Source: Tridacna crocea
Taxonomy: Eukaryota > Mollusca > Bivalvia > Cardiida > Cardiidae
Direction of reading: 5' to 3'
DNA length: 64,000 nt
NCBI GenBank assembly: GCA_943736015.1
Contig: OX031056.1
Coordinates: forward strand, 71,017,277 to 71,081,276
Every line of letters starts with the position of its first letter. Position 1 is the stretch's first letter. The translations under genes were made by a program, and so were the position numbers. The notes beneath the pieces were generated by a model. It did no database searches, had not been told where the DNA came from, and was given only the letters and a program-made list of their open reading frames with translations. Of this stretch, positions 4,441 through 53,722 are shown piece by piece.

Positions 4441-4516
4441 AGTCTCAACTAGTACTACAACACAAAACATCCCAGTAATAAACGATCTTTTCGCCAGAGA
4501 ACATCTCTCAACTTCG

Positions 4517-4586
4517 GACAGTGTAGATCCAAGTTCAGGCTTCAAATTCTGTACATCCTGATCTTGATCTACAATGTCCGCAAAAG
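4517..4586. repeat. Hairpin MITE, family M2 (diverged)
   Basis: An inverted pair CGGACAGTGTAGATCCAAG / CTTGATCTACAATGTCCG. Its counterparts are at 46262-46333 and 59738-59806, all about 150-215 bp upstream of a receptor start. Confidence 0.65.
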
Positions 4587-4731
4587 CGCTATGAGTCCTC
4601 GCTTAGCAGCAAAAGGGTTAAATTGCTTCTCAGGTTTCTTTCATTGAACAGGAAGAAGATCAACTTGATACTGCCTTACCTCCAACTTCTTTTTATCGCC
4701 GATTGCAGTCTGACTGAGTAGACAGAAGAAG

Positions 4732-8865: not shown

Positions 8866-9071
8866 GTCGCTCATTTACCTGTATGTCAGTTTAATATGGA
8901 GAATGCCATTCAGTGCGTGTATGTCAGTTTCTTATGGAGAATGTCATTCATGTTTACGTCAGTTTTATATGGAGAATGTCATTTACGTGTATGTCAGTTT
9001 CTTGTAGAGAATGTCATTCATGTTTACACCAGTTTTATTGAAGAATGCCATTCAGTACGTGTATGTCAGTT
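8866..9071 (+). repeat. 35-bp minisatellite, left piece
   Basis: Imperfect tandem copies of a 35-bp unit containing TCAGTTTCTTATGGAGAATG and TCATTTACGTGTATG. The array is cut by the Polinton, which begins at 9072. Its continuation is at 27455-27484 and 29196-29462, and a sister array lies at 52866-53722. Because 35 is not a multiple of 3 and the unit lacks stops, long ORFs appear in several frames; these are not genes. Confidence 0.85.
9066..9071. repeat. Target site duplication, left (TCAGTT)
   Basis: The 6-bp sequence TCAGTT precedes the element and recurs directly after it at 27449-27454. Removing the element and one copy restores the 35-bp minisatellite motif (GTATG-TCAGTT-TCTTATGG). A 6-bp duplication is the known signature of Polinton integrase. 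Confidence 0.9.
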
Positions 9072-9224
9072 AGTAGTAGTAACAGCAGCTCTTTGGATGC
9101 AAACAAAGATGACGTAATCGGTGGTAATCTTGACCTACTTTCGGCCATTGTGTTACTATAGTTAGTAACTCATTTGCATATAAGGAGTTGTTGATGTGTC
9201 ATGGGTATTCGCGGCGGATATGGT

Positions 9225-9520
9225 GAGTCCGCCATTTTGGATGAGGATCGGCCATATTGGATGAGCCATGATGGATTAAGATCAGTATACAGAGCTGACG
9301 TGTATACCTCGTATTGGTAAGTACTCGCGGGCATTGAGGGTCAGGCCCTTTCTTTACCAGACGATAAATAAGTAAATAATTCACCGCAAAGTGGTCAAAG
9401 TGTGGATAGGGATCGGCCATGTTGGATCAATATACAGAATTGACGTGTATATTTCGTTGAGGGTCAGGCCCTTTCCCTACCAGACGATAAATAAATAAAT
9501 AAATAAATAAATGAATGTAC
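9225..9520. repeat. Terminal-region repeats and AAAT microsatellite
   Basis: The outer part of the arm has a diverged internal duplication: GGGTCAGGCCCTTTC...TACCAGACGATAAATAA occurs near 9338 and again near 9462. It ends in an AAAT tetranucleotide run that is longer in the right arm (around 27003-27036). No coding potential was seen. Confidence 0.6.
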
Positions 9521-9681
9521 CTCTCTCCGATGTGCACTCCTCAAGGTCCAACTCTCAAATGAGACATTTAGTCCAGAACAGAGTCTAAAGTAGAATGATG
9601 CGCGTGCGCGAAGCTATATTTAGATATGTGATCATCAACTATATTTAGAGTCATTACATCAGCTATAATAGGGAAGATCCT

Positions 9682-9908
9682 AACAATGGTCTTTTGTTAA
9701 TGTCACCATACTGTCTAGTTTTGTTTATTTGGTGACGGAAGCACGAACAATTGTCTATTCAACTGTCAAAGTTAATCCCCTAACAAAGACCCAAAAGGCA
9801 GAACATTGGTCTTTTGTTAATGTCACCGTACTGTCTGGTTTTGTTTATTTGGTGACGGAAGCACGGACAATGGTCTATTCAACTGTCAAACTTAATCCTT
9901 TTTCAAGT
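9682..9908 (+). repeat. Two tandem 120-bp copies near the element end
   Basis: GGTCTTTTGTTAATGTCACC occurs at 9689 and again at 9809, with the following sequence repeated to AACTGTCAAA. Mirrored copies lie at about 26610-26840. The position between the end and the polymerase promoter leaves room for a terminal replication or regulatory role, which is only a guess. Confidence 0.75.
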
Positions 9909-10126
9909 CATTAACGTGTCTGGCTTCTGTTAACATAGAACTGGAAGATCAGACAATAGCTTATTCAATAAAAGGACCTCGAACTTATACCCCTAAAACG
10001 GCTTGAAATTCAGCCAATCAGAAATAGGGAATTTTCGACCAATCGGATTACAGGACGCATCGACCAATCAGATTACAGGAAAATGACGTGATGCTCAAAA
10101 AATAGATCATGATTGTTCTGGGAGAG

Positions 10127-10134
10127 TATATAAG
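10127..10134 (+). promoter_or_regulatory. TATA box of polymerase gene (left arm)
   Basis: TATATAAG lies 60 bp before the ATG at 10187. With transcription normally starting about 30 bp downstream of TATA, the earlier in-frame ATG at 10109 would fall outside the message, so 10187 is the better start. A mirrored copy lies at 26381-26388. Confidence 0.6.
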
Positions 10135-10186
10135 AAGACGGATAGCTTTAGTTCTTCATTCTAACTTCAGAATTACAACTGACAAC

Positions 10187-13100
10187 ATGGAACACACCCT
10201 GGAAATGATGGTGAATGCTTTTACCGAAGCGGAAGATCTGATGACCTTTGCGGTAGCATGGGATATACAAGAATCCCCCGTGGTCAGATCCCGGCTATAT
10301 CAATTGAGAAACCGAGAGAATGAAAATCACGTGGTCAACACAGAATTAACAGACGAGATGGAAGACAATTTGGAGTTGGCCCTGGAGTACGTAAGAGAGC
10401 AAGAGGAGATAGAGGGGGCCGTTAAAGCCCTGCTCTTTGACGACGAAATGGAGGCCCTTGCCCAAACCTGCGTGGACGATGGAGAGTGGGATCCCCCGAG
10501 TCCAGTACAAGAAGGTAGGGGAGATGAACCACAACCCGGACCATCGGATCAACTACAGTACACTATGAAGAAAACCTCACGACGCACTTACGCAAAGAAT
10601 GCAGCTACAGATCGAACATACAAGGTGAAAATAGATGAAAAGTACAATGGGCAGCAACTCAAAGATGTGAGAGAGGGTCTCCATGATATGATGCATGACG
10701 TATTGAACCAGGCCCGGGGGAATTTAGCGGGAAACGATTTAGGGCGTGTGGTGGTACACCATGACGGATTGCACGACCCTGTCGTCGTCCCACTTCAGGC
10801 CTGGGACCAACTGGACGCAAACAAAGTGATGGAGACCCTGCAAAAGGTACTCAACAGCAACGAGAAACTCTCCATCAATGAAAGTTTCTCCATTACTATA
10901 GGCACCATTGACTTACCGAAAGGGGGAACCAGACGACGAATCACCAACCTGAAAGGCGAGAAGAAGAACTCACTAAAACTCAAAACCTCAATTGTAACCA
11001 TAGACAATAACGACTGCTTATGTATGGCGAGAGCGATTGGCGTGAGCTGGGCAAAATTAAAGAGATGTACACCAGAAGAATGGGAGGAGGTGGTCAAGAA
11101 CAGGCAGGGAAAAAGCAACCTGCAACTAGTACTGGAACATCAGAAAGTTCCCTTGACCTATTACAAGGATCTTTGCAACAAAAAACGTAAACAACAGAAA
11201 CATTTAGCAGTAAACTTATGTCAGATGGCAGGTGTTCCCCAAGACAGGCCGGCGAGTCTCAACGATGTAGAAGCGTTTGAAGAACTCCTGGGGGTGCGCG
11301 TGATGGTGGTCAGTGCACGATTGGGTAACAAGTTCATCACCAGTCCGAGTAGTGACGAACGTCCCTGTATCTACCTGTACCTGGTGGACGATGACCACTT
11401 TCAGGCCATCACCAGCATCACGGGGTTCTTCAGCGCCAACTACTTCTGCGAGAAATGCCTGTACCATTATGATCACCGAGAATACCACGAATGTGACACC
11501 AGCTGTATCGTGTGCAAGAGGGCCCATTGCCCAAAGACCGAGCTGACCCGAACCTGCACGGACTGCAACATGACGTGTCGATCGGATGACTGTTACAAAA
11601 AACATAAAGAAGTACCCCTACACAAAAAGGGCAAGAAGAAGGGCCAACCTAGCGGACCTTCCCAGTGTCAAAAGTATTGGAAATGCCCCACGTGTTATAA
11701 AGTTGTGAGACTGGACCAGAGGAAGAAAGAAGACCATGAATGTGGAGAATATTGGTGCTCCACATGTACTAAATACGTTATGGACGATCACCAATGTTAC
11801 TTAAGAGCGACACCAGCAAAAGAACATTATATTCCAAAGTTTATATTTTTTGATTTTGAATGTTCCCAAGATGAAATTACCTATTGTGACGAAGGATATT
11901 GTACCCGATTCTAAATTAAATTGTAAGGACTGTCAAGCACCTGAGGTATGTAAATCTTGCTCCAAATGTCAAAATTGTAAAACGTCATGGTGCGGTAAAG
12001 CGACCCACCGTCCAAATTTTGTCGTAGCGCATTCCGTATGCCCAAAATGCATTGACAAAGAACTGAAACCCGATTCTGTATGTAAGGGTTGCGGTACCCG
12101 TTGCGACGAATGTGACAACACTGATCTGTACGAGAACGAGGACGAAGGTCCTTGTCCCGGTAAATGCGGATTCAGAGAAGTCATATTCGAGGGAACAGAT
12201 ACCGCCGAAAAGTTTGGACAGTGGCTCTTTACGGACCAGCATGAATATTTCAAGGTCGTTGCCCATAACTTGAAAGGCTACGATGGCTATTTTCTTCTGG
12301 AATATTTAATTGATCAATCGATAAGACCGGACAAAATCATTTATAACGGTTCAAAAATCATGTATATGACAGTGGAGAAAGGTTTACATATGAGAGTGAT
12401 TGACAGTCTCAATTTCTTACCCATGAAATTATCGCAATTACCTAAAGCATTTGGTTTACACGAATTGAAAAAAGGGTGGTTCCCACATTATTTTAATACT
12501 AGAGAGAATCAAAATTATGTTGGAGCCTATCCTGATGCTAAAGATTATGGTTACGATTTCATGAGTGAGAAAGAAAGAAGTGAGTTTGTAGCGTGGTTGA
12601 GTGAGAGAGAAAATGAAATATTTGATTTTAGAAAAGAAATGTTAGAACACTGTAGAAGTGATGTAGATATTTTAAGAAAAGCTTGTATGAAATTCAGACA
12701 TTTATTAATGAGTGCTACGGGGGAAGAGATAGAGGTTGTCAATGAGAAAGGGGAGGTAGAAAAGAAATGGGTGCGGGCTGTGGATCCCTTTGACTCGGTC
12801 ACCATCGCTTCTGTATGCATGAATGTCTTCCGGACAAAGTTCTTGGAAGAAGAATGGAGAGTACAGATGCATGGTAGTGGAGACAAATGGATCCAGGCTA
12901 GAATGAGAGACGGCACATTGTATGCATCTTTGGAGGGTGAATGGGTGAGTGAGGAACAGATGAAAATTACAGCCAGTGAATTTATTATGTCACCGATAGC
13001 AAAAATACCTCCCGGTGGATATAGGGATCAATATAGTCAAGCGTCAATTCAGTGGTTAGAGTGGAGGGCACGTTTAGACAAAGTACACATTCAACATGCG

Positions 13101-14783
13101 TTAAATGAAGGGGAAAAGACGATCCCTGGAACTCGATATAAGTTGGATGGGTACTGCGTAGAAACACACACGGCATATGAATATCACGGCTGCGTGTTTC
13201 ACGGATGCCCTGTGTGTTTCTCAGATAATCGAGAAGAAATGTGTCATCCCCTAACCCACCAGTCATTGGATGAATTGTATGCATTGACTATGAAAAAGAA
13301 AGCATATTTAGAGCAATTAGGCATGAACTACGTGTGCATTTGGGACCATGAATTTCAAAAGGAACGAAATCAAAATACAGAATTGATAACCTTCATTAAG
13401 CAGTTAGACATGACAGAGAGATTGGACCCTAGAGAGAGCTTCTTCGGCGGGCGTACCAATGCGAGTCAACTCTACCGTAAAACGGAAGAACAGGAAAGGA
13501 TCATGTACGTGGATTTCACGAGTTTGTATCCTTGGGTGAATAAGTATTGTCGGTATCCCGTGGGTCACCCGAAAATCTTGACCAAAGATTTTGGGAACAT
13601 AGAGGAGTATTTTGGTATTGCTAAGGTCAAGGTCTTACCCCCGAGAGGACTGTATCATCCAGTCCTCCCGTACAGATCAAATGGCAAACTAAAATTCCCT
13701 TTATGCAGGACCTGTGCGGATACCGAAAATCCTGACACCTGCACCTGTTCGGATGAAGAGAGAGTATTGACAGGTACATGGTGCACCCCGGAGATACACA
13801 CGGCTCTTAGACTAGGATACCAGCTTATAACTATATACGAAATATACCACTGGGAAGAAACAACACAATATGACCCCGATTCCGGAGAAGGAGGACTGTT
13901 TGCCAAGTACATCAATACCTTTTTGAAGTACAAACAAGAGGCGAGTGGTCCTCCGGACTGGATTCGGGATGCACAAGACATGCACACTTACATACAAGAC
14001 TATGCACAAAAAGAGGGGGTTTCATTGGATCGAGAGAATATTGTGAAGAACCCAGGATTGAGAGCCCTAGCCAAACTATGTCTCAATAGCTTTTGGGGCA
14101 AGTTTGGACAGAGGCTCAATATGCGCCAGACAGAAATCTTTACAGATAGTCAGGTCAACCTGTTCTTTCAACTATTCTCAGATCCCTTAAAACAACCTCT
14201 CAACTTTCACATATTAACGGACGACATGATACAAATTGAATGGCTATACAAACAGGACTGCCAACCGGAAGACAACAACACAAACATATACTTGGCGACC
14301 TTCACAACGTGCTGGGCCAGACTCAAATTGTACAGTGTGCTTGAACAATTAGACAGACGAGTACTGTATTACGATACAGATAGCGTCATTTACTTGAGTA
14401 GACCTGGAGAGGTAGACCCACCCTTAGGGGACTACTTGGGCGAATTGACCGATGAATTGGAGAAGGGAGAGCACATTGTAGAATTTGTGTCTGGAGGTCC
14501 CAAAAACTACGCATACAAAACAAACACCAACAAAGAAACGTGTAAAGTCAGAGGATTCACACTACACTACACCAACTCACAACTCATCAATTTTGAAAGC
14601 GTCAAACATATCGTTACAGACACACACGGCACCTCACACATCACTGTCACAAACCCAAGCAAAATATGTAGAGACAAAGGTAAACGAAAATTATACAACA
14701 GAGCAGAAGAAAAAAGATATCAAATGGTATACACCAAACGTAGAAGAATAGAGAACTATGACACAGTACCTTACGGATATTAG
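10187..14783 (+). pseudogene. Protein-primed DNA polymerase B, frameshifted (left arm)
   Basis: Same gene as the intact right-arm copy (21733-26328) but broken by one additional T at about 11899. The first frame stops at 11914, just after exonuclease motif I, and the rest stays open in another frame to 14783. Both halves keep recognisable motifs: zinc-ribbon cysteines and DFECSQDE before the break; HNLKGYDGY, CRSDVDIL, DFTSLYP, NSFWGKFG and YYDTDS after it. The left copy keeps glycine in exonuclease motif II where the right copy has aspartate. Without frameshifting it cannot give a full polymerase. A sequencing or assembly indel is possible, since it falls in a short ATATT context rather than a homopolymer run. 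Confidence 0.88.
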
Positions 14784-14824
14784 AATAGGGAGAATGGTGT
14801 GAGAATGAATGTAATTGAAATATT

Positions 14825-16045
14825 GACGTTACTGGAAGCAAAATTGCATGTTACTGGATGTAAAAATCAATGTTACTGGAAGTAAATTTGCATGTTACTG
14901 GATGTAAAAATCAATGTTATTGGAAGTAAATTTTGATGTTACTGGAAGTAAATTTTGATGTTATTGGAAGCAAATTTGCATGTTACTGGAACCTATTTTT
15001 GCAATTTTACATTGAAATATATAGGGAAAATTGGATTCATTTTTTGATGTTACTGGAAGCAAAATTTCATGTTACTGGATGTAAAAATCAATGTTACTGG
15101 AAGTAAATTTGCATGTTACTGGATGTAAAAATCAATGTTATTGGAAGTGAATTCTGATGTAACTGGAAGTAAAATTTAATGTTATTGGAAGCAAAATTGT
15201 ATGTTACTGGAACCTATTTTTGCAATTTTACATAGAAATATATAGGGAAAATTGGATTCATTCTTTGATGTTACTGGAAGCAAATTTGCGTGTTACTGGA
15301 TGTAAAAATCAATGTTACTGGAAGTAAATTTGCATGTTACTGGATGTAAAAATCAATGTTATTGGAAGTAAATTTTGATGTTACTGGAAGTAAATTTTGA
15401 TGTTATTGGAAGCAAATTTGCATGTTACTGGAACCTATTTTTGCAATTTTACATTGAAATATATAGGGAAAATTGGATTCATTTTTTGATGTTACTGGAA
15501 GCAAATTTGCGTGTTACTGGATGTAAAATTCACTGTTATTGGAAGTAAATTTTGATGTTACTGGAAGTAAAAATCAGTGTTATTGGAAGTAAATTTTGAT
15601 GTTACTGGAAGTAAAATTCAATGTTATTGGAAGCAAATTTGCATGTTACTGGAACCTATTTTTGCAATTTTACATAGAAATATATAGGGAAAATTGGATT
15701 CATTTTTTGATGTTACTGGAAGCAAAATTGCGTGTTACTGGATGTAAAAATCAATGTTATTGGAAGTAAATTTTGATGTTACTGGAAGTAAAATTTAATG
15801 TTATTGGAAGCAAATTTGCATGTTACTGGAACCTATTTTTGCAATTTTACATTGAAATATATAGGGAAAATTGGAATCATTTTTTGATGTTACTGGAAGC
15901 AAATTTGCATGTTACTGGATGTAAAAATCAATGTTACTGGAAGTAAATTTTAATGTTATTGGAAACAAATTTTGATGTTACTGGAAGCAAATTTTGATGT
16001 TATTGGAAGTAACTTTTGATGTTATTTGAAGTAAATTTTGACGTT
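14825..16045 (+). repeat. 22-bp tandem array with 221-bp higher-order unit
   Basis: About 50 imperfect copies of a 22-bp unit of the type TGTTACTGGAAGTAAATTTT. Variants (GGATGTAAAAATCAA, ATTGGAAGCAAATTTGCA) follow each other in a fixed order, with an AT-rich insert (ACCTATTTTTGCAATTTTAC) recurring at 14991, 15212, 15433, 15654 and 15831. The spacing is 221 bp except for the last, which is two 22-mers shorter. It follows the polymerase stop directly and is mirrored at 20471-21692. Confidence 0.9.
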
Positions 16046-16170
16046 AGATCTCTTGTATATTATTTGCTGATGCGTTGTATATTGTTTCATTTATAACTGA
16101 AATGAATAAAAGAATGTAAGAATGACAATGTCTGTTGTACTTTTTTTCGTTGCCCTTATTCGTAAGAATT

Positions 16171-16413
16171 ATGAATGACCCGGAATCCCCTAATCGTGAA
16201 CGGGGTAGTTTTATTCCTATTCCTAAACCAGAAGACTGTAATCAATCAAATCAATGGCCTTTACTGGGTACACAAGTTCCTAAAACTGAAATCGTGTACT
16301 TATGTCAAATGATCATTGTCTATATTATAATCATCACTTCCGTAGTCAATTTGTCTATACAAAATGGTTCTACCGAATTGTGGATAAGTTCACTCAGCAG
16401 TTGTATCGGTTAG
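16171..16413 (+). CDS. Small membrane protein of the element (left arm)
   Basis: An 80-residue frame starting MNDPESPNRERG. The first half is polar and proline-rich; a hydrophobic stretch follows (QMIIVYIIIITSVVNLSI), then a conserved-looking tail, ELWISSLSSCIG. A TAG stops it there, but the frame continues for nine sense codons to a TAA at 16441-16443, directly before the ATPase ATG, so the protein may be slightly truncated. From memory, similar short one-helix proteins with an ELW..LLSSCLGYLLP-like tail occur in Polinton/adintovirus genomes; their function is unknown. The right arm copy differs by one residue (L to F). The longer open frame from 16135 begins with TTG, not ATG. Confidence 0.6.
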   Translation: MNDPESPNRERGSFIPIPKPEDCNQSNQWPLLGTQVPKTEIVYLCQMIIVYIIIITSVVNLSIQNGSTELWISSLSSCIG

Positions 16414-16444
16414 GCCTTGCCTAATCCGAAGCTCAAAAAATAAA

Positions 16445-16615
16445 ATGGTAGTCCTGCCCTTCGAACCTAGCTCCAGTTTTTGTATCAGCGGTCAAACGGG
16501 ATCAGGGAAAACACAATGGGTCTATCGATTCCTCAAACACATTAAACACATGTACAGTAGAGATCCTCCTGTTCATATCCTCTTCTGCTATGGCACTCAC
16601 CTACCATTATTTTGA
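16445..16615 (+). pseudogene. Packaging ATPase fragment with Walker A (left arm)
   Basis: The frame opens with ATG and contains a clear P-loop, SGQTGSGKT, at residues 15-23 in a context (PSSSFCISGQTGSGKTQWV) typical of the FtsK/HerA-type genome-packaging ATPases of Polintons and related viruses. It ends at residue 56 with two successive TGA codons. A short further stretch in the same frame (from 16619) still looks related, then a minisatellite takes over, so Walker B and the rest are gone. The same stops are present in the right arm (19901-20071). Confidence 0.7.
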
Positions 16616-16640
16616 TGAATGGAACAACACATACCTCAGT

Positions 16641-17125
16641 TTACGGGTGAAAGCGAACAAATCAAGTCGTCCCCCTGTAAAGCAATTGATTAAATGACTC
16701 TAACAGGATTGGACAAGACACCAACCCTTTAATGCCCAGTACCCATTTATATCATTGATTATAACGCAAAAGCGAAAAATCAAGTTATTCCCCTTTAGAT
16801 TAAAAGTTAAATGACTCTAACAATATTGAAAATAAATCCCTACTCTTTTAAGGTCCACTACCCATTTATACCATTGATTATGATGTAAAAGGGGAAAAAA
16901 ATCAAGTCACCTCCCTTTAAAGCAAGAAATTAAATTATTCTAACAAGATTGGACAAGACCCTCCCACCCCTTTAAGATCGAGTGCCCACATATATGAATA
17001 CCATTGATTACAATGCAAAAGCAAAAAATCAAGTCGTCCCACTTTAAACCAGTAGATTCAATGTCTCTAACAAGATTGGACAAGACCTTCATCCCTTTAA
17101 AGTCCAGTGCCCATTGATAAGTCAA
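16641..17125 (+). repeat. Minisatellite of about 118-127 bp, four copies
   Basis: ATCAAGT recurs at 16661, 16779, 16901 and 17028, each followed by CCCCTTTAAAGC-like sequence, ATGACTCTAACAAGATTGG and CCCATTTATA...ATTGATTA. It replaces the body of the ATPase gene. The mirrored copy lies at about 19400-19890. Confidence 0.8.
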
Positions 17126-17962
17126 TGTTTTTTGACTTGAGATCGGATTAAGATAACTTATAAGGGGAGCTGGCCAATGTTTACACAAACATTTATAATA
17201 ACCCTAGTAACGGATTAAATTTTGCAAAAATGTAAGATTTTAGTCGAGAGTTATAGGAGTTGTTTCCTTCAGCAATTAAATGATTTTTTTCTCAACATTG
17301 CAACCTTGTAGAAAGTAAAACCGTGTACTGATAAACCTAATTCTAGGAAATGTAAGCAATGGCACCCATTTCTAAGACAACCAAGCAAATAAACCCATAG
17401 TCATCGTATTCTTTCATGTTGTGACAGTTTAATGCATTTTGAGATAATCCAACCAAATGATACCTGACCTATTACTCTTTTACTTTGACTCCCCTCATTG
17501 TCTTTCAATTTCCCAGCGTTTCAGGCTCAATACTCATTTACTTGGAAATATCGACTTCTTTATTTGCTGTCAGATCGAATCGACATAGGTATCATTGGAA
17601 TGGCCTTGTCACACTGTTGAAGAAAATGTATAGTTTTGTGGGTGTCACTTGAATGACAACGGATATACAAGGGTTAAAGTTTTGGGAGATACACGCTTTT
17701 GGCATCCACAGGCCCCAAAATGACTCAAATCTGTATTAAATGACCGATTATTACGTTCTTGGTGTCTATCCACGATAACTTTTACCAAGAAATTCAAATT
17801 TGAAGTCAAAATTTACCTAAAAATTATAGCAAACTCTTAGGTTTGCCTGAAAGATTTCAGATACGTTATTAATGCACTAACTTTAACAAAAAATAGCCAA
17901 AATCGTTGTTTATGAACCGATTTTCGTGACCTTGGTGTCTAATTGTATTAACTTTTACTCAG
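17126..17962. other. Inner arm, noncoding
   Basis: AT-rich sequence with no open frame of note on either strand; the arm copy is at about 18560-19400. A capsid or integrase gene would be expected in this space in a complete Polinton, but neither is visible. Heavily decayed remnants cannot be excluded. Confidence 0.5.
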
Positions 17963-18046
17963 AACTCCATTTATGGGGGTAACGAATACATTGTGTTGAG
18001 ATAATGGTAAAAAATGACTCCTTAATAAACGACTGTCAGATTAGGG

Positions 18047-18185
18047 TATAAAAGTATACGGAATGTACCACTGAGAAGAAACCATTCAGTATGACCCTAC
18101 AAACGGGCGAAGGGACCAGTCGCCAAATACATAAATACCTTTCTAAACTTTGAACAAGAGGCGACTGGTCCCCTCGCCCGTTTGT
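18047..18185 (+). pseudogene. Decayed DNA polymerase B fragment near the centre
   Basis: The stretch TACCACTGAGAAGAAACCAT...CAGTATGACCC, followed by CCAAATACATAAATACCTTT and AACAAGAGGCGACTGGTCC, aligns with the intact polymerase gene at about 13845-13960 (the region coding YHWEETTQYDP to QEASGPP). It carries many substitutions, including a TGG to TGA stop, and is repeated in the next 232-bp copy (18279-18417). It is therefore a second, much older polymerase remnant. This homology was read by eye. Confidence 0.7.
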
Positions 18186-18356
18186 AGAGTCATAAACTCC
18201 ATTTATGGGGGTAACGAATACATTGTGTTGAGATAATGGTAAAAAATGACTCCTTAATAAACGACTGTCAGATTAGGGTATAAAAGTATACGGAATGTAC
18301 CACTGAGAAGAAACCATTCAGTATGACTCTACAAACGGGCGAAGGGACCAGTCGCC

Positions 18357-18391
18357 AAATACATAAATACCTTTCTAAACTTTGAACAAGA
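18357..18391. other. Palindrome spacer (35 bp)
   Basis: The inner arms GGGACCAGTCGCC (ending 18356) and GGCGACTGGTCCC (from 18392) flank 35 bp that are not inverted. The spacer itself belongs to the decayed polymerase fragment. Confidence 0.85.
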
Positions 18392-19399
18392 GGCGACTGG
18401 TCCCCTCGCCCGTTTGTAGAGTCATACTGAATGGTTTCTTCTCAGTGGTACATTCCGTATACTTTTATACCCTAATCTGACAGTCGTTTATTAAGGAGTC
18501 ATTTTTTACCATTATCTCAACACAATGTATTCGTTACCCCCATAAATGGAATTCTGAGTAAAAGTTAATACAATTAGACACCAAGGTCACGAAAATCGGT
18601 TCATAAACAACGATTTTGGCTATTTTTTGTTAAAGTTAGTGCATTAATAACGTATCTGAAATCTTTCAGGCAAACCTAAGATTTTGCTATAATTTTTAGG
18701 TAAATTTTGACTTCAAATTTGAATTTCCTGGTAAAAGTTATCGTGGATAGACACCAAGAACGTAATAATCGGTCATTTAATACAGATTTGAGTCATTTTG
18801 GTGCCTGTGGATGCCAAAAGCGTGTATCTCCCAAAACTTTAACCCTTGTATATCCGTTGTCATTCAAGTGACACCCACAAAACTATACATTTTCTTCAAC
18901 AGTGTGACAAGGCCATTCCAATGATACCTATGTCGATTCGATCTGACAGCAAATAAAGAAGTCGATATTTCCAAGTAAATGAGTATTGAGCCTGAAACGC
19001 TGGGAAATTGAAAGACAATGAGGGGAGTCAAAGTAAAAGAGTAATAGGTCAGGTATCATTTGGTTGGATTATCTCAAAATGCATTAAACTGTCACAACAT
19101 GAAAGAATACGATGACTATGGGTTTATTTGCTTGGTTGTCTTAGAAATGGGTGCCATTGCTTACATTTCCTAGAATTAGGTTTATCAGTACACGGTTTTA
19201 CTTTCTACAAGGTTGCAATGTTGAGAAAAAAATCATTTAATTGCTGAAGGAAACAACTCCTATAACTCTCGACTAAAATCTTACATTTTTGCAAACTTTA
19301 ATCCGTTACTAGGGTTATTATAAATGTTTGTGTAAACATTGGCCAGCTCCCCTTATAAGTTATCTTAATCCGATCTCAAGTCAAAAAACATTGACTTAT

Positions 19400-19890
19400 C
19401 AATGGGCACTGGACTTTAAAGGGATGAAGGTCTTGTCCAATCTTGTTAGAGACATTGAATCTACTGGTTTAAAGTGGGACGACTTGATTTTTTGCTTTTG
19501 CATTGTAATCAATGGTATTCATATATGTGGGCACTCGATCTTAAAGGGGTGGGAGGGTCTTGTCCAATCTTGTTAGAATAATTTAATTTCTTGCTTTAAA
19601 GGGAGGTGACTTGATTTTTTTCCCCTTTTACATCATAATCAATGGTATAAATGGGTAGTGGACCTTAAAAGAGTAGGGATTTATTTTCAATATTGTTAGA
19701 GTCATTTAACTTTTAATCTAAAGGGGAATAACTTGATTTTTCGCTTTTGCGTTATAATCAATGATATAAATGGGTACTGGGCATTAAAGGGTTGGTGTCT
19801 TGTCCAATCCTGTTAGAGTCATTTAATCAATTGCTTTACAGGGGGACGACTTGATTTGTTCGCTTTCACCCGTAAACTGAGGTATGTGTT
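19400..19890 (-). repeat. Minisatellite, right-arm copy
   Basis: Mirror of 16641-17125, with the same four units in reverse orientation. Confidence 0.8.
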
Positions 19891-19900
19891 GTTCCATTCA

Positions 19901-20071
19901 TCAAAATAATGGTAGGTGAGTGCCATAGCAGAAGAGGATATGAACAGGAAGATCTCTACTGTACATGTGTTTAATGTGTTTGAGGAATCGATAGACCCAT
20001 TGTGTTTTCCCTGATCCCGTTTGACCGCTGATACAAAAACTGGAGCTAGGTTCGAAGGGCAGGACTACCAT
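19901..20071 (-). pseudogene. Packaging ATPase fragment with Walker A (right arm)
   Basis: Mirror copy of the left-arm fragment: same ATG, same P-loop SGQTGSGKT, same early stop after 56 codons. The break therefore existed before the arms were mirrored, or has been copied between them since. Confidence 0.7.
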
Positions 20072-20102
20072 TTTATTTTTTGAGCTTCGGATTAGGCAAG
20101 GC

Positions 20103-20345
20103 CTAACCGATACAACTGCTGAGTGAACTTATCCACAATTCGGTAGAACCATTTTGTATAGACAAATTGACTACGGAAGTGATGATTATAATATAGACAA
20201 TGATCATTTGACAGAAGTACACGATTTCAGTTTTAGGAACTTGTGTACCCAGTAAAGGCCATTGATTTGATTGATTACAGTCTTCTGGTTTAGGAATAGG
20301 AATAAAACTACCCCGTTCACGATTAGGGGATTCCGGGTCATTCAT
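20103..20345 (-). CDS. Small membrane protein of the element (right arm)
   Basis: An 80-residue frame identical to the left-arm copy apart from phenylalanine in place of leucine just before the hydrophobic helix. It has the same TAG followed by nine open codons. Start chosen at the ATG of MNDPESP; upstream in-frame codons lack another ATG. Function unknown. Confidence 0.6.
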   Translation of the reverse strand: MNDPESPNRERGSFIPIPKPEDCNQSNQWPLLGTQVPKTEIVYFCQMIIVYIIIITSVVNLSIQNGSTELWISSLSSCIG

Positions 20346-20470
20346 AATTCTTACGAATAAGGGCAACGAAAAAAAGTACAACAGACATTGTCATTCTTAC
20401 ATTCTTTTATTCATTTCAGTTATAAATGAAACAATATACAACGCATCAGCAAATAATATACAAGAGATCT

Positions 20471-21692
20471 AACGTCAAAATTTACTTCAAATAACATCAA
20501 AAGTTACTTCCAATAACATCAAAATTTGCTTCCAGTAACATCAAAATTTGTTTCCAATAACATTAAAATTTACTTCCAGTAACATTGATTTTTACATCCA
20601 GTAACATGCAAATTTGCTTCCAGTAACATCAAAAAATGATTCCAATTTTCCCTATATATTTCAATGTAAAATTGCAAAAATAGGTTCCAGTAACATGCAA
20701 ATTTGCTTCCAATAACATTAAATTTTACTTCCAGTAACATCAAAATTTACTTCCAATAACATTGATTTTTACATCCAGTAACACGCAATTTTGCTTCCAG
20801 TAACATCAAAAAATGAATCCAATTTTCCCTATATATTTCTATGTAAAATTGCAAAAATAGGTTCCAGTAACATGCAAATTTGCTTCCAATAACATTGAAT
20901 TTTACTTCCAGTAACATCAAAATTTACTTCCAATAACACTGATTTTTACTTCCAGTAACATCAAAATTTACTTCCAATAACAGTGAATTTTACATCCAGT
21001 AACACGCAAATTTGCTTCCAGTAACATCAAAAAATGAATCCAATTTTCCCTATATATTTCAATGTAAAATTGCAAAAATAGGTTCCAGTAACATGCAAAT
21101 TTGCTTCCAATAACATCAAAATTTACTTCCAGTAACATCAAAATTTACTTCCAATAACATTGATTTTTACATCCAGTAACATGCAAATTTACTTCCAGTA
21201 ACATTGATTTTTACATCCAGTAACACGCAAATTTGCTTCCAGTAACATCAAAGAATGAATCCAATTTTCCCTATATATTTCTATGTAAAATTGCAAAAAT
21301 AGGTTCCAGTAACATACAATTTTGCTTCCAATAACATTAAATTTTACTTCCAGTTACATCAGAATTCACTTCCAATAACATTGATTTTTACATCCAGTAA
21401 CATGCAAATTTACTTCCAGTAACATTGATTTTTACATCCAGTAACATGAAATTTTGCTTCCAGTAACATCAAAAAATGAATCCAATTTTCCCTATATATT
21501 TCAATGTAAAATTGCAAAAATAGGTTCCAGTAACATGCAAATTTGCTTCCAATAACATCAAAATTTACTTCCAGTAACATCAAAATTTACTTCCAATAAC
21601 ATTGATTTTTACATCCAGTAACATGCAAATTTACTTCCAGTAACATTGATTTTTACATCCAGTAACATGCAATTTTGCTTCCAATAACGTCA
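20471..21692 (-). repeat. 22-bp tandem array, right-arm copy
   Basis: Mirror of 14825-16045, with the same order of variants and the same 221-bp super-period, including the shortened last period. Confidence 0.9.
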
Positions 21693-21732
21693 ATATTTCA
21701 ATTACATTCATTCTCACACCATTCTCCCTATT

Positions 21733-24700
21733 CTAATATCCGTAAGGTACTGTGTCATAGTTCTCTATTCTTCTACGTTTGGTGTATACCATTTGATATC
21801 TTTTTTCTTCTGCTCTGTTGTATAATTTTCGTTTACCTTTGTCTCTACATATTTTGCTTGGGTTTGTGACAGTGATGTGTGAGGTGCCGTGTGTGTCTGT
21901 AACGATATGTTTGACGCTTTCAAAATTGATGAGTTGTGAGTTGGTGTAGTGTAGTGTGAATCCTCTGACTTTACACGTTTCTTTGTTGGTGTTTGTTTTG
22001 TATGCGTAGTTTTTGGGACCTCCAGACACAAATTCTACAATGTGCTCTCCCTTCTCCAATTCATCGGTCAATTCGCCCAAGTAGTCCCCTAAGGGTGGGT
22101 CTACCTCTCCAGGTCTACTCAAGTAAATGACGCTATCTGTATCGTAATACAGTACTCGTCTGTCTAATTGTTCAAGCACACTGTACAATTTGAGTCTGGC
22201 CCAGCACGTTGTGAAGGTCGCCAAGTATATGTTTGTGTTGTTGTCTTCCGGTTGGCAGTCCTGTTTGTATAGCCATTCAATTTGTATCATGTCGTCCGTT
22301 AATATGTGAAAGTTGAGAGGTTGTTTTAAGGGATCTGAGAATAGTTGAAAGAACAGGTTGACCTGACTATCTGTAAAGATTTCTGTCTGGCGCATATTGA
22401 GCCTCTGTCCAAACTTGCCCCAAAAGCTATTGAGACATAGTTTGGCTAGGGCTCTCAATCCTGGGTTCTTCACAATATTCTCTCGATCCAATGAAACCCC
22501 CTCTTTTTGTGCATAGTCTTGTATGTAAGTGTGCATGTCTTGTGCATCCCGAATCCAGTCCGGAGGACCACTCGCCTCTTGTTTGTACTTCAAAAAGGTA
22601 TTGATGTACTTGGCAAACAGTCCTCCTTCTCCGGAATCGGGGTCATATTGTGTTGTTTCTTCCCAGTGGTATATTTCGTATATAGTTATAAGCTGGTATC
22701 CTAGTCTAAGAGCCGTGTGTATCTCCGGGGTGCACCATGTACCTGTCAATACTCTCTCTTCATCCGAACAGGTGCAGGTGTCAGGATTTTCGGTATCCGC
22801 ACAGGTCCTGCATAAAGGGAATTTTAGTTTGCCATTTGATCTGTACGGGAGGACTGGATGATACAGTCCTCTCGGGGGTAAGACCTTGACCTTAGCAATA
22901 CCAAAATACTCCTCTATGTTCCCAAAATCTTTGGTCAAGATTTTCGGGTGACCCACGGGATACCGACAATACTTATTCACCCAAGGATACAAACTCGTGA
23001 AATCCACGTACATGATCCTTTCCTGTTCTTCCGTTTTACGGTAGAGTTGACTCGCATTGGTACGCCCGCCGAAGAAGCTCTCTCTAGGGTCCAATCTCTC
23101 TGTCATGTCTAACTGCTTAATGAAGGTTATCAATTCTGTATTTTGATTTCGTTCCTTTTGAAATTCATGGTCCCAAATGCACACGTAGTTCATGCCTAAT
23201 TGCTCTAAATATGCTTTCTTTTTCATAGTCAATGCATACAATTCATCCAATGACTGGTGGGTTAGGGGATGACACATTTCTTCTCGATTATCTGAGAAAC
23301 ACGCAGGGCATCCGTGAAACACGCAGCCGTGATATTCATATGCCGTGTGTGTTTCTACGCAGTACCCATCCAACTTATATCGAGTTCCAGGGATCGTCTT
23401 TTCCCCTTCATTTAACGCATGTTGAATGTGTACTTTGTCTAAACGTGCCCTCCACTCTAACCACTGAATTGACGCTTGACTATATTGATCCCTATATCCA
23501 CCGGGAGGTATTTTTGCTATCGGTGACATAATAAATTCACTGGCTGTAATTTTCATCTGTTCCTCACTCACCCATTCACCCTCCAAACATGCATACAATG
23601 TGCCGTCTCTCATTCTAGCCTGGATCCATTTGTCTCCACTACCATGCATCTGTACTCTCCATTCTTCTTCCAAGAACTTTGTCCGGAAGACATTCATGCA
23701 TACAGAAGCGATGGTGACCGAGTCAAAGGGATCCACAGCCCGCACCCATTTCTTTTCTACCTCCCCTTTCTCATTGACAACCTCTATCTCTTCCCCCGTA
23801 GCACTCATTAATAAATGTCTGAATTTCATACAAGCTTTTCTTAAAATATCTACATCACTTCTACAGTGTTCTAACATTTCTTTTCTAAAATCAAATATTT
23901 CATTTTCTCTCTCACTCAACAACGCTACAAACTCACTTCTTTCTTTCTCACTCATGAAATCGTAACCATAATCTTTAGCATCAGGATAGGCTCCAACATA
24001 ATTTTGATTATCTCTAGTATTAAAATAATGTGGGAACCACCCTTTTTTCAATTCGTGTAAACCAAATGCTTTAGGTAATTGCGATAATTTCATGGGTAAG
24101 AAATTGAGACTGTCAATCACTCTCATATGTAAACCTTTCTCCACTGTCATATACATGATTTTTGAACCGTTATAAATGATTTTGTCCGGTCTTATCGATT
24201 GATCAATTAAATATTCCAGAAGAAAATAGCCATCGTAGTCTTTCAAGTTATGGGCAACGACCTTGAAATATTCATGCTGGTCCGTAAAGAGCCACTGTCC
24301 AAACTTTTCGGCGGTATCTGTTCCCTCGAATATGACTTCTCTGAATCCGCATTTACCGGGACAAGGACCTTCGTCCTCGTTCTCGTACAGATCAGTGTTG
24401 TCACATTTGTCGCAACGGGTACCGCAACCCTTACATACAGAATCGGGTTTCAGTTCTTTGTCAATGCATTTTGGGCATACGGAATGCGCTACGACAAAAT
24501 TTGGACGGTGGGTCGCTTTACCGCACCATGACGTTTTACAATTTTGACATTTGGAGCAAGATTTACATACCTCAGGTGCTTGACAGTCCTTACAATTTAA
24601 TTTAGAATCGGGTACATATCCTTCGTCACAATAGGTAATTTCATCTTGGGAACATTCAAAATCAAAAAATATAAACTTTGGAATATAATGTTCTTTTGCT

Positions 24701-26328
24701 GGTGTCGCTCTTAAGTAACATTGGTGATCGTCCATAACGTATTTAGTACATGTGGAGCACCAATATTCTCCACATTCATGGTCTTCTTTCTTCCTCTGGT
24801 CCAGTCTCACAACTTTATAACACGTGGGGCATTTCCAATACATTTGACACTGGGAAGGTCCGCTAGGTTGGCCCTTCTTCTTGCCCTTTTTGTGTAGGGG
24901 TACTTCTTTATGTTTTTTGTAACAGTCATCCGATCGACACGTCATGTTGCAGTCCGTGCAGGTTCGGGTCAGCTCGGTCTTTGGGCAATGGGCCCTCTTG
25001 CACACGATACAGCTGGTGTCACATTCGTGGTATTCTCGGTGATCATAATGGTACAGGCATTTCTCGCAGAAGTAGTTGGCGCTGAAGAACCCCGTGATGC
25101 TGGTGATGGCCTGAAAGTGGTCATCGTCCACCAGGTACAGGTAGATACAGGGACGTTCGTCACTACTCGGACTGGTGATGAACTTGTTACCCAATCGTGC
25201 ACTGACCACCATCACGCGCACCCCCAGGAGTTCTTCAAACGCTTCTACATCGTTGAGACTCGCCGGCCTGTCTTGGGGAACACCTGCCATCTGACATAAG
25301 TTTACTGCTAAATGTTTCTGTTGTTTACGTTTTTTGTTGCAAAGATCCTTGTAATAGGTCAAGGGAACTTTCTGATGTTCCAGTACTAGTTGCAGGTTGC
25401 TTTTTCCCTGCCTGTTCTTGACCACCTCCTCCCATTCTTCTGGTGTACATCTCTTTAATTTTGCCCAGCTCACGCCAATCGCTCTCGCCATACATAAGCA
25501 GTCGTTATTGTCTATGGTTACAATTGAGGTTTTGAGTTTTAGTGAGTTCTTCTTCTCGCCTTTCAGGTTGGTGATTCGTCGTCTGGTTCCCCCTTTCGGT
25601 AAGTCAATGGTGCCTATAGTAATGGAGAAACTTTCATTGATGGAGAGTTTCTCGTTGCTGTTGAGTACCTTTTGCAGGGTCTCCATCACTTTGTTTGCGT
25701 CCAGTTGGTCCCAGGCCTGAAGTGGGACGACGACAGGGTCGTGCAATCCGTCATGGTGTACCACCACACGCCCTAAATCGTTTCCCGCTAAATTCCCCCG
25801 GGCCTGGTTCAATACGTCATGCATCATATCATGGAGACCCTCTCTCACATCTTTGAGTTGCTGCCCATTGTACTTTTCATCTATTTTCACCTTGTATGTT
25901 CGATCTGTAGCTGCATTCTTTGCGTAAGTGCGTCGTGAGGTTTTCTTCATAGTGTACTGTAGTTGATCCGATGGTCCGGGTTGTGGTTCATCTCCCCTAC
26001 CTTCTTGTACTGGACTCGGGGGATCCCACTCTCCATCGTCCACGCAGGTTTGGGCAAGGGCCTCCATTTCGTCGTCAAAGAGCAGGGCTTTAACGGCCCC
26101 CTCTATCTCCTCTTGCTCTCTTACGTACTCCAGGGCCAACTCCAAATTGTCTTCCATCTCGTCTGTTAATTCTGTGTTGACCACGTGATTTTCATTCTCT
26201 CGGTTTCTCAATTGATATAGCCGGGATCTGACCACGGGGGATTCTTGTATATCCCATGCTACCGCAAAGGTCATCAGATCTTCCGCTTCGGTAAAAGCAT
26301 TCACCATCATTTCCAGGGTGTGTTCCAT
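21733..26328 (-). CDS. Protein-primed family B DNA polymerase (right arm, open)
   Basis: Replicative polymerase of the element, of the DNA_pol_B_2 type that starts synthesis from a terminal protein. In the numbering of the longest frame (1557 aa from 26406) I see: an acidic N-terminal region; a possible Cys/His domain at 300-430; cysteine-rich zinc ribbons at 446-575; exonuclease I DFECSQDE at 582; exonuclease II at 719-727 (HNLKDYDGY); exonuclease III CRSDVDIL near 848-855; an endonuclease-like insert near 1013-1033 (DGYCVE...YEYHGCVFHGC); and polymerase motifs A DFTSLYP at 1135, B NSFWGKFG at 1326 and C YYDTDS at 1420-1425. The ATG at 26328 (1531 aa) is preferred because TATATAAG lies 60 bp upstream. 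Glycine-to-aspartate in exonuclease II could affect proofreading. Reads inward from the element end. Confidence 0.93.
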   Translation of the reverse strand: MEHTLEMMVNAFTEAEDLMTFAVAWDIQESPVVRSRLYQLRNRENENHVVNTELTDEMEDNLELALEYVREQEEIEGAVKALLFDDEMEALAQTCVDDGEWDPPSPVQEGRGDEPQPGPSDQLQYTMKKTSRRTYAKNAATDRTYKVKIDEKYNGQQLKDVREGLHDMMHDVLNQARGNLAGNDLGRVVVHHDGLHDPVVVPLQAWDQLDANKVMETLQKVLNSNEKLSINESFSITIGTIDLPKGGTRRRITNLKGEKKNSLKLKTSIVTIDNNDCLCMARAIGVSWAKLKRCTPEEWEEVVKNRQGKSNLQLVLEHQKVPLTYYKDLCNKKRKQQKHLAVNLCQMAGVPQDRPASLNDVEAFEELLGVRVMVVSARLGNKFITSPSSDERPCIYLYLVDDDHFQAITSITGFFSANYFCEKCLYHYDHREYHECDTSCIVCKRAHCPKTELTRTCTDCNMTCRSDDCYKKHKEVPLHKKGKKKGQPSGPSQCQMYWKCPTCYKVVRLDQRKKEDHECGEYWCSTCTKYVMDDHQCYLRATPAKEHYIPKFIFFDFECSQDEITYCDEGYVPDSKLNCKDCQAPEVCKSCSKCQNCKTSWCGKATHRPNFVVAHSVCPKCIDKELKPDSVCKGCGTRCDKCDNTDLYENEDEGPCPGKCGFREVIFEGTDTAEKFGQWLFTDQHEYFKVVAHNLKDYDGYFLLEYLIDQSIRPDKIIYNGSKIMYMTVEKGLHMRVIDSLNFLPMKLSQLPKAFGLHELKKGWFPHYFNTRDNQNYVGAYPDAKDYGYDFMSEKERSEFVALLSERENEIFDFRKEMLEHCRSDVDILRKACMKFRHLLMSATGEEIEVVNEKGEVEKKWVRAVDPFDSVTIASVCMNVFRTKFLEEEWRVQMHGSGDKWIQARMRDGTLYACLEGEWVSEEQMKITASEFIMSPIAKIPPGGYRDQYSQASIQWLEWRARLDKVHIQHALNEGEKTIPGTRYKLDGYCVETHTAYEYHGCVFHGCPACFSDNREEMCHPLTHQSLDELYALTMKKKAYLEQLGMNYVCIWDHEFQKERNQNTELITFIKQLDMTERLDPRESFFGGRTNASQLYRKTEEQERIMYVDFTSLYPWVNKYCRYPVGHPKILTKDFGNIEEYFGIAKVKVLPPRGLYHPVLPYRSNGKLKFPLCRTCADTENPDTCTCSDEERVLTGTWCTPEIHTALRLGYQLITIYEIYHWEETTQYDPDSGEGGLFAKYINTFLKYKQEASGPPDWIRDAQDMHTYIQDYAQKEGVSLDRENIVKNPGLRALAKLCLNSFWGKFGQRLNMRQTEIFTDSQVNLFFQLFSDPLKQPLNFHILTDDMIQIEWLYKQDCQPEDNNTNIYLATFTTCWARLKLYSVLEQLDRRVLYYDTDSVIYLSRPGEVDPPLGDYLGELTDELEKGEHIVEFVSGGPKNYAYKTNTNKETCKVRGFTLHYTNSQLINFESVKHIVTDTHGTSHITVTNPSKICRDKGKRKLYNRAEEKRYQMVYTKRRRIENYDTVPYGY

Positions 26329-26380
26329 GTTGTCAGTTGTAATTCTGAAGTTAGAATGAAGAACTAAAGCTATCCGTCTT

Positions 26381-26388
26381 CTTATATA
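26381..26388 (-). promoter_or_regulatory. TATA box of polymerase gene (right arm)
   Basis: TATATAAG on the minus strand, 60 bp before the ATG at 26328; mirror of 10127-10134. Confidence 0.6.
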
Positions 26389-26609
26389 CTCTCCCAGAAC
26401 AATCATGATCTATTTTTTGAGCATCACGTCATTTTCCTGTAATCTGATTGGTCGATGCGTCCTGTAATCCGATTGGTCGAAAATTCCCTATTTCTGATTG
26501 GCTGAATTTCAAGCCGTTTTAGGGGTATAAGTTCGAGGTCCTTTTATTGAATAAGCTATTGTCTGATCTTCCAGTCCTATGTTAACAGAAGCCAGACACG
26601 TTAATGACT

Positions 26610-26840
26610 TGAAAAAGGATTAAGTTTGACAGTTGAATAGACCATTGTCCGTGCTTCCGTCACCAAATAAACAAAACCAGACAGTACGGTGACATTAACA
26701 AAAGACCAATGTTCTGCCTTTTGGGTCTTTGTTAGGGGATTAACTTTGACAGTTGAATAGACAATTGTTCGTGCTTCCGTCACCAAATAAACAAAACTAG
26801 ACAGTATGGTGACATTAACAAAAGACCATTGTTAGGATCT
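26610..26840 (-). repeat. Two tandem 120-bp copies, right-arm end
   Basis: Mirror of 9682-9908. GGTGACATTAACAAAAGACC occurs twice, 120 bp apart. Confidence 0.75.
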
Positions 26841-27004
26841 TCCCTATTATAGCTGATGTAATGACTCTAAATATAGTTGATGATCACATATCTAAATATA
26901 GCTTCGCGCACGCGCATCATTCTACTTTAGACTCTGTTCTGGACTAAATGTCTCATTTGAGAGTTGGACCTTGAGGAGTGCACATCGGAGAGAGGTACAT
27001 TCAT

Positions 27005-27035
<31 letters not shown>

Positions 27036-27448
27036 TCGTCTGGTAGGGAAAGGGCCTGACCCTCAACGAAATATACACGTCAATTCTGTATATTGATCCA
27101 ACATGGCCGATCCCTATCCACACTTTGACCACTTTGCGGTGAATTATTTACTTATTTATCATCTGGTAAAGAAAGGGCCTGACCCTCAATGCCCGCGAGT
27201 ACTTACCAATACGAGGTATACACGTCAGCTCTGTATACTGATCTTAATCCATCATGGCTCATCCAATATGGCCGATCCTCATCCAAAATGGCGGACTCAC
27301 CATATCCGCCGCGAATACCCATGACACATCAACAACTCCTTATATGCAAATGAGTTACTAACTATAGTAACACAATGGCCGAAAGTAGGTCAAGATTACC
27401 ACCGATTACGTCATCTTTGTTTGCATCCAAAGAGCTGCTGTTACTACT

Positions 27449-27454
27449 TCAGTT
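27449..27454. repeat. Target site duplication, right (TCAGTT)
   Basis: Matches 9066-9071 exactly and is followed by TCTTATGGAGAATG, the next part of the 35-bp minisatellite unit. Confidence 0.9.
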
Positions 27455-52865: not shown

Positions 52866-53722
52866 TACGTGTATGTCAGTTTCTTATGGAGAATGTCATT
52901 CATGTCTACGTCAGTTATATATGAAGAATGCCATTTACGAGTATGTCAGTTTCTTATGGAGAAGGTCATTCATGTTTACGTTTTATATGGAGAATGTCAT
53001 TTACGTGTATGTCAGTTTCTTGTAGAGAATGTCATTCATGTTTACGTTTTATATGGAGAATGTCATTTACGTGTACATGTATGTCAGTTTCTTATGGAGA
53101 ATGTCATTCATGTTTGCATCAGTTTTATATGGAGAATGTCATATATGTGTATCTCAGTTTCTTATTGAGAATGTCATTTACATGTTTGTCAGTTCTTATG
53201 GAGAATGTCATTTACGTATGTCAGTTTCTGTTTTAGAATGTCATTTACATGTATGTCAGTTTCTTATGGAGAATGTTATTCATGTGTATGTCACTTTTAT
53301 ATAGAGAATATCATTTACGTGTATATCAGTTTCTTATGGAAAATGTCATTTATTTTTATGTCCGTTTCTTATGGAGAATGTCGCTTACGTGTATGTCAGT
53401 TCCTTATGGAGAATGTCATTAACGTGTATTTCAGTTTTTATGGAGAATGTCATTTAAGTGTATGTCAGTTTCTTATGGAGAATGCAATTGACGTGTATGT
53501 CAGTTTCTTATGGAAAATGTCATTCATGTATACGCCAGTTTCATATGGAGAATGTAATTTACTTGTATGTCAGTTTTATATAGAGAATGTCATTCATGTG
53601 TACGTCAGTTTCTGTTTCAGAAAATCATTCACGTGTACGTCAGTTTCTGTTTGAGAAATTCATTCACGTGTACGCCAGTTTCTGTTTGAGAATGTCATTT
53701 ACGTGTACGTTAGTTTATCTTG
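52866..53722 (+). repeat. 35-bp minisatellite (unit 2, uninterrupted)
   Basis: About 24 imperfect copies of the unit TCAGTTTCTTATGGAGAATG-TCATTTACGTGTATG; some are shortened or carry GTTTAGAGAATG variants toward the end. It is the intact sister of the array split by the Polinton. The ORFs of 91-164 codons crossing it are periodic artefacts. Confidence 0.88.

Follow-up and report, generated by a model that had tools for sequence, protein, structure and literature searches.

A giant palindromic, Polinton-derived element in Tridacna crocea and related palindromes in the same genome

A stretch of 64,000 nucleotides from the bivalve Tridacna crocea (NCBI GenBank assembly GCA_943736015.1, contig OX031056.1, positions 71,017,277 to 71,081,276 of the forward strand; hereafter, the window) contains, at positions 9072-27448, a giant palindrome that self-alignment resolves into two arms of about 9 kb arranged head to head, each with a gene for a family-B DNA polymerase (PolB). 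The element is probably a recent copy of a palindromic, Polinton-derived, non-autonomous lineage, in which the palindrome would be renewed by snap-back synthesis near the centre and the integrase would be provided in trans. Related palindromes lie at many loci of the same genome, with target-site duplications and with arms that are alike within a copy and different between copies, and integrase frames are present elsewhere in the genome. The mirrored form seems to be inherited rather than a one-off accident, and the genome of the element is one half of a Polinton (tip, PolB and the remnant of an ATPase gene) joined head to head with itself through a 35-nt loop.

Read inward from the tip, each arm carries PolB, a 22-bp tandem array, a P-loop fragment, 127-bp repeats and then the centre. 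The individual features, in window coordinates, are as follows.

9066..9071, no strand: left target-site duplication, TCAGTT
9072..9089, plus strand: left tip, AGTAGTAGTAACAGCAGC, three AGT units
9072..18356, plus strand: left arm, the 232-bp central duplication included (self-alignment)
10109..14783, plus strand: left-arm PolB, in two frames (10109-11914 and 11850-14783), with a frameshift from a one-base length difference near 11.9 kb
14818..16046, plus strand: 22-bp tandem-repeat array of the left arm
16388..16615, plus strand: P-loop fragment of the left arm, read as a remnant of the Polinton ATPase; it matches the gene next to PolB in the retrieved sequences L003, L004 and L002
16659..17113, plus strand: 127-bp tandem repeats of the left arm
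17963..18426, plus strand: tandem duplication of 232 bp that spans the palindrome centre, on the left side only (repeat search)
18357..18391, plus strand: central spacer (loop), 35 nt (sequence comparison)
18392..27448, minus strand: right arm, 99.7% identical to the left arm when read inward from the tip (self-alignment)
19901..20128, minus strand: mirror copy of the ATPase fragment in the right arm
20470..21698, minus strand: mirror copy of the 22-bp array in the right arm
21733..26406, minus strand: right-arm PolB, an open frame of 1557 aa with an OTU-like fold at about residues 274-445, a Cys/His-rich region and DNA_pol_B_2
27434..27448, minus strand: right tip, AGTAGTAACAGCAGC, two AGT units in the minus-strand reading
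27449..27454, no strand: right target-site duplication, TCAGTT
52862..53731, plus strand: paralogous 35-bp minisatellite without the element, outside it, used for comparison with an unfilled site

The inverted arms (9075-18124 versus 18392-27448) are 99.69% identical over 9,058 columns, with 19 mismatches and two gaps of 9 bases in total, namely the 1-base difference inside PolB and an 8-base difference in a microsatellite. Chance cannot account for arms so long and so alike. Positions 17963-18194 are repeated directly as 18195-18426, and a second copy of the spacer therefore lies at 18125-18159. The symmetry ends at the perfect TCAGTT duplications on both sides, which fits insertion and not a fold-back error of the assembly. 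The target was a 35-bp minisatellite: when the flanks are joined with one TCAGTT, the 35-bp register is retained, and the joined flanks match the paralogous unfilled array at 52862-53731 with 84% identity over 84 query bases (88 columns). A preliminary description of the window had proposed two 9-kb arms around a 35-bp spacer, a polymerase gene in each arm and a perfect 6-bp outer duplication left by integration of the mirrored molecule itself; all of this was borne out, the coordinates to the base, with the polymerase gene open in the right arm and frameshifted in the left.

Terminal inverted repeats that begin with 5'-AG, together with short tandem repeats at the termini, are typical of Polintons. 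The window element has Polinton-type AGTAGT(AGT) tips, on an inverted repeat that here measures about 9 kb, and the 6-bp target duplication. Its polymerase belongs to the protein-primed type of family B (PF03175 at 2.2e-46), so that protein priming would be expected from its family. A structure model of PolB residues 1-600 predicts an OTU-like fold at 274-445 (Foldseek E no better than 4.5e-3), N-terminal to the polymerase, an arrangement that a passage in PMC11071308 gives for polinton pPolB. Among the matches listed for this N-terminal model there was no terminal-protein structure, a listing that does not test presence. Homologues of PolB numbered 919 at E<=0.001; among the 120 listed, the three best (71-77% identical) are unnamed and the nearest named ones come from bivalves (Ruditapes, 73%; Mya, 61%). 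Viral contigs scanned with the PolB protein and with a PolB alignment yielded no relative, a PDB sequence search gave 0 matches, and PHROGs returned DNA polymerase families and weak matches.

The remaining Polinton genes are reduced or were not found. The P-loop fragment comprises only about 60-75 aa, and its Pfam matches all fall below the curated cut-offs. Queries were taken from L001 (CALIZB010000033.1), in which PolB faces frames read as protease, capsid and integrase genes. The contigs of L001 and L003 are filed under bacterial metagenome-assembled genomes and bear Polinton-like genes, evidently as eukaryotic or viral contamination. No integrase was found in the window arm by tblastn with the L001 integrase, and tblastn with the L001 frames found no protease and no major or minor capsid protein at E<=1e-3 in the window arm, L017, L031, L033, L035 and L037-L039, the names of these protease and capsid queries being based on gene position and recall, without Pfam. 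The loss of capsid and integrase genes that had been proposed earlier is thus in line with what was detected, and the protease can be added. Because no integrase was detected, the window copy is classed as Polinton-derived and non-autonomous, and its earlier designation as a Polinton has to be qualified in this sense.

Searches of the genome covered one assembly (1.05 Gb, 31 contigs), and as the best candidates were scored (40 of 163 for the end query, 40 of 110 for the centre query, 106 of 1689 for the integrase and 40 of 58 for the PolB DNA query), all counts are lower bounds. A 1-kb query from the element end gave at least 58 matches, including ten further head-to-head pairs 10-19 kb apart, each retrieved as two pieces. 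All ten loci hold the centre. Nine are symmetric apart from local differences, such as those between the arms of C5 and C11, and the tenth, C7:22479249-22489491 (L035, L036), is a rearranged derivative of 10.2 kb. Seven are PolB palindromes of 17.1-18.9 kb (C8, C17, C4a, C2a, C4b, C11 and C5). The other two, C9 (17.6 kb) and C2b (18.0 kb), termed type C, contain no PolB and have as cargo a BIR-domain frame and a decayed integrase; the frame of C2b (C2:65.35 Mb, L033:7010-7486) matches PF00653, an inhibitor of apoptosis domain, at 1.5e-22, and that of C9 (C9:11.75 Mb, L031:6828-7295) is similar to it, the Pfam run having been made on the C2b frame alone.

A query with the centre recovered the A, B and C copies, a pair on C10 at 87% and ten more head-to-head pairs at 80-81%, termed type D, two of which were sampled (that on C3 at its outer 4.7 kb and paired hits), the other eight being known from paired hits. 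At C14:36.03 Mb, the arms are 99.6% identical over 7,951 columns around a 76-nt loop, with no clear target duplication; at C3:38101808-38118676, the tip is AGTAGTAATAGCG, the duplication is ACGATG, and the outer 4.7 kb are 99.6% alike. A further palindrome, at C10:22140604-22156015, has a stop-free integrase frame of 306 aa near each end, the tip AGTAGTAATTATGG and the duplication ATCATC; its outer 1.6 kb are 98.6% alike and its centre is symmetric (97-99%) around a spacer of about 98 bp, the middle of the palindrome having been read in part. Judged by eye, perfect 6-bp target duplications flank 11 of the 13 elements for which both ends were seen: in addition to those of the window copy, C3 and this integrase palindrome, they are CATAGC (C8), CTGAGT (C17), CTTGTG (C2a), TTTGAC (C4b), TTTCAC (C11), CTTGTT (C5), GACATG (C9) and TCAAAA (C2b). 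The exceptions are C7, with 5 of 6 bases matching, and C14; the right end of C4a is outside the retrieved sequence.

Ordinary Polintons of the same genome serve as an internal control for the assembly. A 1.5-kb DNA query from PolB matched eight loci over its whole length (1,499-1,501 bases) at 98-100%, and all eight are head-to-head pairs. The 24 unpaired PolB loci comprise one on C7 (97-98%, in fragments), C10:33157539 (91%) and 22 at 80-88%. When the 24 best integrase hits are considered, 19 of these unpaired loci prove to have a convergent match at a distance of 8.5-11.5 kb and are ordinary elements with one PolB and one integrase. In one ordinary element (L047), a subterminal stretch contains blocks 80-91% similar to the outer part of the type D element on C3. 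The integrase search gave at least 114 matches, 16 of them with stops; stop-free frames are plentiful and are ample possible sources of integrase, which suits the mobilization in trans that the preliminary description had put forward. The snap-back origin proposed there also fits the evidence.

The history of the arms was traced in the first ~5.75 kb of the eight PolB copies, the right arm of C4a starting about 200 bases short. Divergence between the two arms of a copy is 0.157% in the window copy, 0.104% in C8, 0 in C17, 0.072% in C4a, 0.087% in C2a, 0.070% in C4b, 0.332% in C11 and 0.504% in C5, versus copy-to-copy values of 0.12% for C8 and C4a, 0.38-0.42% for C17 and these two, 1.10% for C2a and C4b, and 2.04-2.63% otherwise. 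Among gap-free columns with two states, 109 substitutions occur in both arms of a single copy and nowhere else, and 45 are confined to a single arm. In columns 211-5740, none of the 5,530 columns has an arm-to-arm difference in two or more copies, and all 96 differing cells are private. C17 is set apart from C8 and C4a, its close relatives, by changes that both of its arms carry, and in a tree of the arms sister arms pair with support of at least 0.995 in six of the eight copies. A left/right grouping of the C8 and C4a arms in this tree was considered and traced to the tip variant and the ends of the alignment.

Between copies, the ratio of non-synonymous to synonymous substitution rates (dN/dS) of PolB is 0.18-0.45 (21 pairs), which indicates that the gene has evolved under purifying selection. 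In four copies that have the PolB frame open on both sides, the arms differ from each other at 2 synonymous and 6 non-synonymous sites, and the seven coding substitutions that separate the window arms are all non-synonymous. We infer that PolB would have been under selection before insertion and would have drifted afterwards.

The 35-nt loop is identical (35/35) in the window copy and the ten retrieved copies, and the longer loop of the type D element on C14 has its inner part in common with it. Loop and adjoining stem resemble PolB coding sequence: 29 of the 35 bases match a stretch within the C5 PolB frame, and a stretch of 23 aa from the loop region matches the L001 PolB (43%, E 1.8e-4). 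The stem beside the loop is not fully symmetric, with a one-base bulge about 14 bp from the loop in 8 of 11 copies, an A/G asymmetry about 47 bp away common to C8, C17, C4a and C5, and a C/G asymmetry about 37 bp away common to C8 and C4a. A scan of the final 1.2 kb in six copies added a single further shared asymmetry, a T10/T11 homopolymer about 840 bp from the loop. The differences in the near-loop stem appear to be inherited, and they fit a fold-back within the first tens of bases past the loop.

The favoured reading would involve a cycle of five steps. The encoded PolB would begin synthesis at the AGT-repeat tip by protein priming, and the new strand would copy one arm, traverse the loop and continue for about 50 bp into the second arm. 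Its 3' end would then fold onto the complementary stem just made and copy its own arm to the tip, yielding a hairpin with one open end. A second protein-primed round would turn this hairpin into a full palindromic duplex with two like tips. Lastly, an integrase acting in trans, from ordinary Polintons or from an integrase-bearing palindrome, would insert the duplex with a 6-bp duplication. It is possible, with lower probability, that the palindromes form a split, obligately palindromic Polinton system, with PolB and integrase on separate palindromes that share AGT tips and related centres, per-cycle snap-back from one arm, arms evolving in concert and arm divergence as an insertion clock.

Inheritance of the palindrome has to be weighed against recurrent snap-back, in which a one-armed Polinton or free virus outside the assembly, with an imperfect hairpin of about 47 bp, would give rise to each palindrome by an independent fold-back. 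This would predict like arms within a copy, the same loop and a shared asymmetry beside it, all as found, and the assembly does contain ordinary Polintons whose PolB is 80-88% identical in DNA sequence. However, among the 40 of 58 candidates scored, all 8 loci in the 98-100% class are paired and no one-armed member turned up, and matches that span the whole centre query sit at palindromic loci. In addition, the centre is common, in whole or in part, to palindromes with PolB, with a BIR frame and a decayed integrase, or with no evident gene, so that one one-armed parent per cargo type would be needed. An inherited palindrome is preferred because of the missing one-armed parent and the centre common to different cargo, and recurrent snap-back is accordingly considered rather unlikely; the preference is not proven. 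Chromosomal gene conversion between arms, by which a palindrome of single origin replicated as an ordinary duplex would keep its arms alike after integration, is improbable. Conversion between the arms of long palindromes is a known process, and if it spared the loop-proximal region it would also leave a shared asymmetry there; nevertheless, with 96 of 96 differing cells private, every older difference would need to have been erased, and C17 differs from C8 and C4a by changes in both arms.

That the mirror images arose in assembly, from fold-back reads or collapsed haplotypes, is very unlikely. Long palindromes are a known assembly problem and the evidence is assembled sequence, but the symmetry stops at the target duplications, the flanks differ, the loci are separate and the arms carry substitutions between them; furthermore, the same assembly presents a single PolB with a single convergent integrase at 19 loci. 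Least credible of all is a one-off defective-interfering molecule without further propagation as a palindrome, as the preliminary description had proposed. The lack of detectable capsid, protease and integrase genes in the window copy would agree with it; it is contradicted by the related palindromes at many other loci, with several types of cargo, and by the purifying selection on PolB between them.

It should be noted that several observations weigh against an inherited palindrome renewed by near-centre snap-back, which is itself built on the sequence of a single assembly. The near-loop asymmetry fits repeated fold-back of a one-armed parent with a ~47-bp imperfect hairpin equally well. C4b has no bulge beside the loop, the T10/T11 asymmetry is shared by C8 and C4a in opposite loop orientation, and the arms of these two copies are not resolved as sisters in the tree. 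The scan for shared asymmetries covered columns 4-5740 and the last 1.2 kb, with about 2 kb after the end of PolB outside it, and the chance of an unchanged 35-nt loop in eight PolB copies is about 0.06 at the mean rate of the arms. The centre query also gave five unpaired matches, unpaired PolB matches of the family occur on C7 (rearranged) and at C10:33157539 (91%), and about a dozen further places hold matches to the end, whether isolated, closely spaced or in clusters. In columns 4-210 of the seven copies with both ends, a three-base left-right difference is common to C8 and C5, and ten more differences are private to C5 and one to C2a; these tip differences are outside what the snap-back model explains.

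The tips occur in two variants, AGTAGTATAGGCAGC and AGTAGTAACAGCAGC (left tips of L017, L019, L021, L029 and L031). C17 has AGTAGTATAGGCAGC at both ends, and C8, C5 and C9 each have unlike ends (ATAGG versus AACAG), for which the model has no explanation. The near-identical copies C8 and C4a both have AGTAGTATAGGCAGC on the left and opposite loop orientations (the right tip of C4a being unseen), a hint that the loop may flip relative to the arms. In C5 (C5:16.39 Mb, L029/L030), the ends differ at 13 of columns 4-210, with 16 more differences in the rest up to column 5740, as if one end had been exchanged.

Palindromic Polintons were not found described in the literature, in a search of open-licence papers. 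The window element resembles Polintons/Mavericks (adintovirus-like animal elements) in its protein-primed-type PolB, which has an OTU-like fold ahead of the polymerase, and in its AGT-type tips, 6-bp duplication and ATPase remnant; ordinary members whose PolB is 80-88% identical in DNA sequence inhabit the same genome. Unlike in those, the terminal inverted repeat takes up the entire element, there are two copies of PolB, and integrase, protease and capsid are undetected. In the yeast killer plasmid pGKL1, a protein-primed linear replicon, snap-back leads to hairpins with one open end and to palindromic dimers. These derivatives are likewise protein-primed snap-back products, but they are cytoplasmic, unintegrated deletion forms and no inherited family with target duplications. 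Symmetric recombinants of adenovirus, with two left ends, are large palindromes of a protein-primed replicator that kept identical ends; they are defective genomes with host DNA, neither transposons nor an evolving family. Foldback/Galileo elements share very long terminal inverted repeats, whereas Galileo is placed in the P-element group through its transposase, according to an excerpt of its published description.

If the favoured reading is correct, a lineage of 15-19-kb palindromes would have spread through an animal genome with its polymerase gene kept under selection, and snap-back would be a normal mode of inheritance of a protein-primed eukaryotic element, beyond the accidents of adenoviruses and yeast plasmids. 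Such elements, which may replicate themselves yet must borrow an integrase, would offer a natural test of template switching by protein-primed polymerases. Arm-to-arm divergence would be a clock for dating insertions, like that of paired long terminal repeats, and mirrored transcripts could yield long double-stranded RNA.

A long near-perfect palindrome should be unstable and short-lived. In keeping with such instability, 3 of 11 copies of types A, B and C show rearrangements or duplications at the centre, namely C7, C11 (L027, L028) and the window copy (17963-18426). Whether the loop has a function was also considered, and with chance conservation at P of about 0.06 no claim is made. Three of the other places with end matches were sampled: L038 is a relic of about 5.2 kb with both tips and a loop matching at 34 of 35 positions, L039 starts like type C with no partner seen, and L037 is an end alone. 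Many partial, tandem-like copies of the element end form a cluster at C10:17770000-17802000.

Three units in tandem make up the host region, with copies 41.5 and 13.4 kb apart and long stretches in common at about 85-98% identity. Each unit bears one TIR-LRR (Toll-like receptor) gene in a single open frame (4732-6867, 46477-48582 and 59942-62095), the closest named relatives of which are from Mercenaria, Ruditapes, Cyclina and Mactra and thus mark the host as a heterodont bivalve; the palindrome follows the first of these genes. Further minisatellites of the window are located at 48970-49912 and 56235-58230 (156-bp units; inverted 22-bp ACGATAGT-type arrays).

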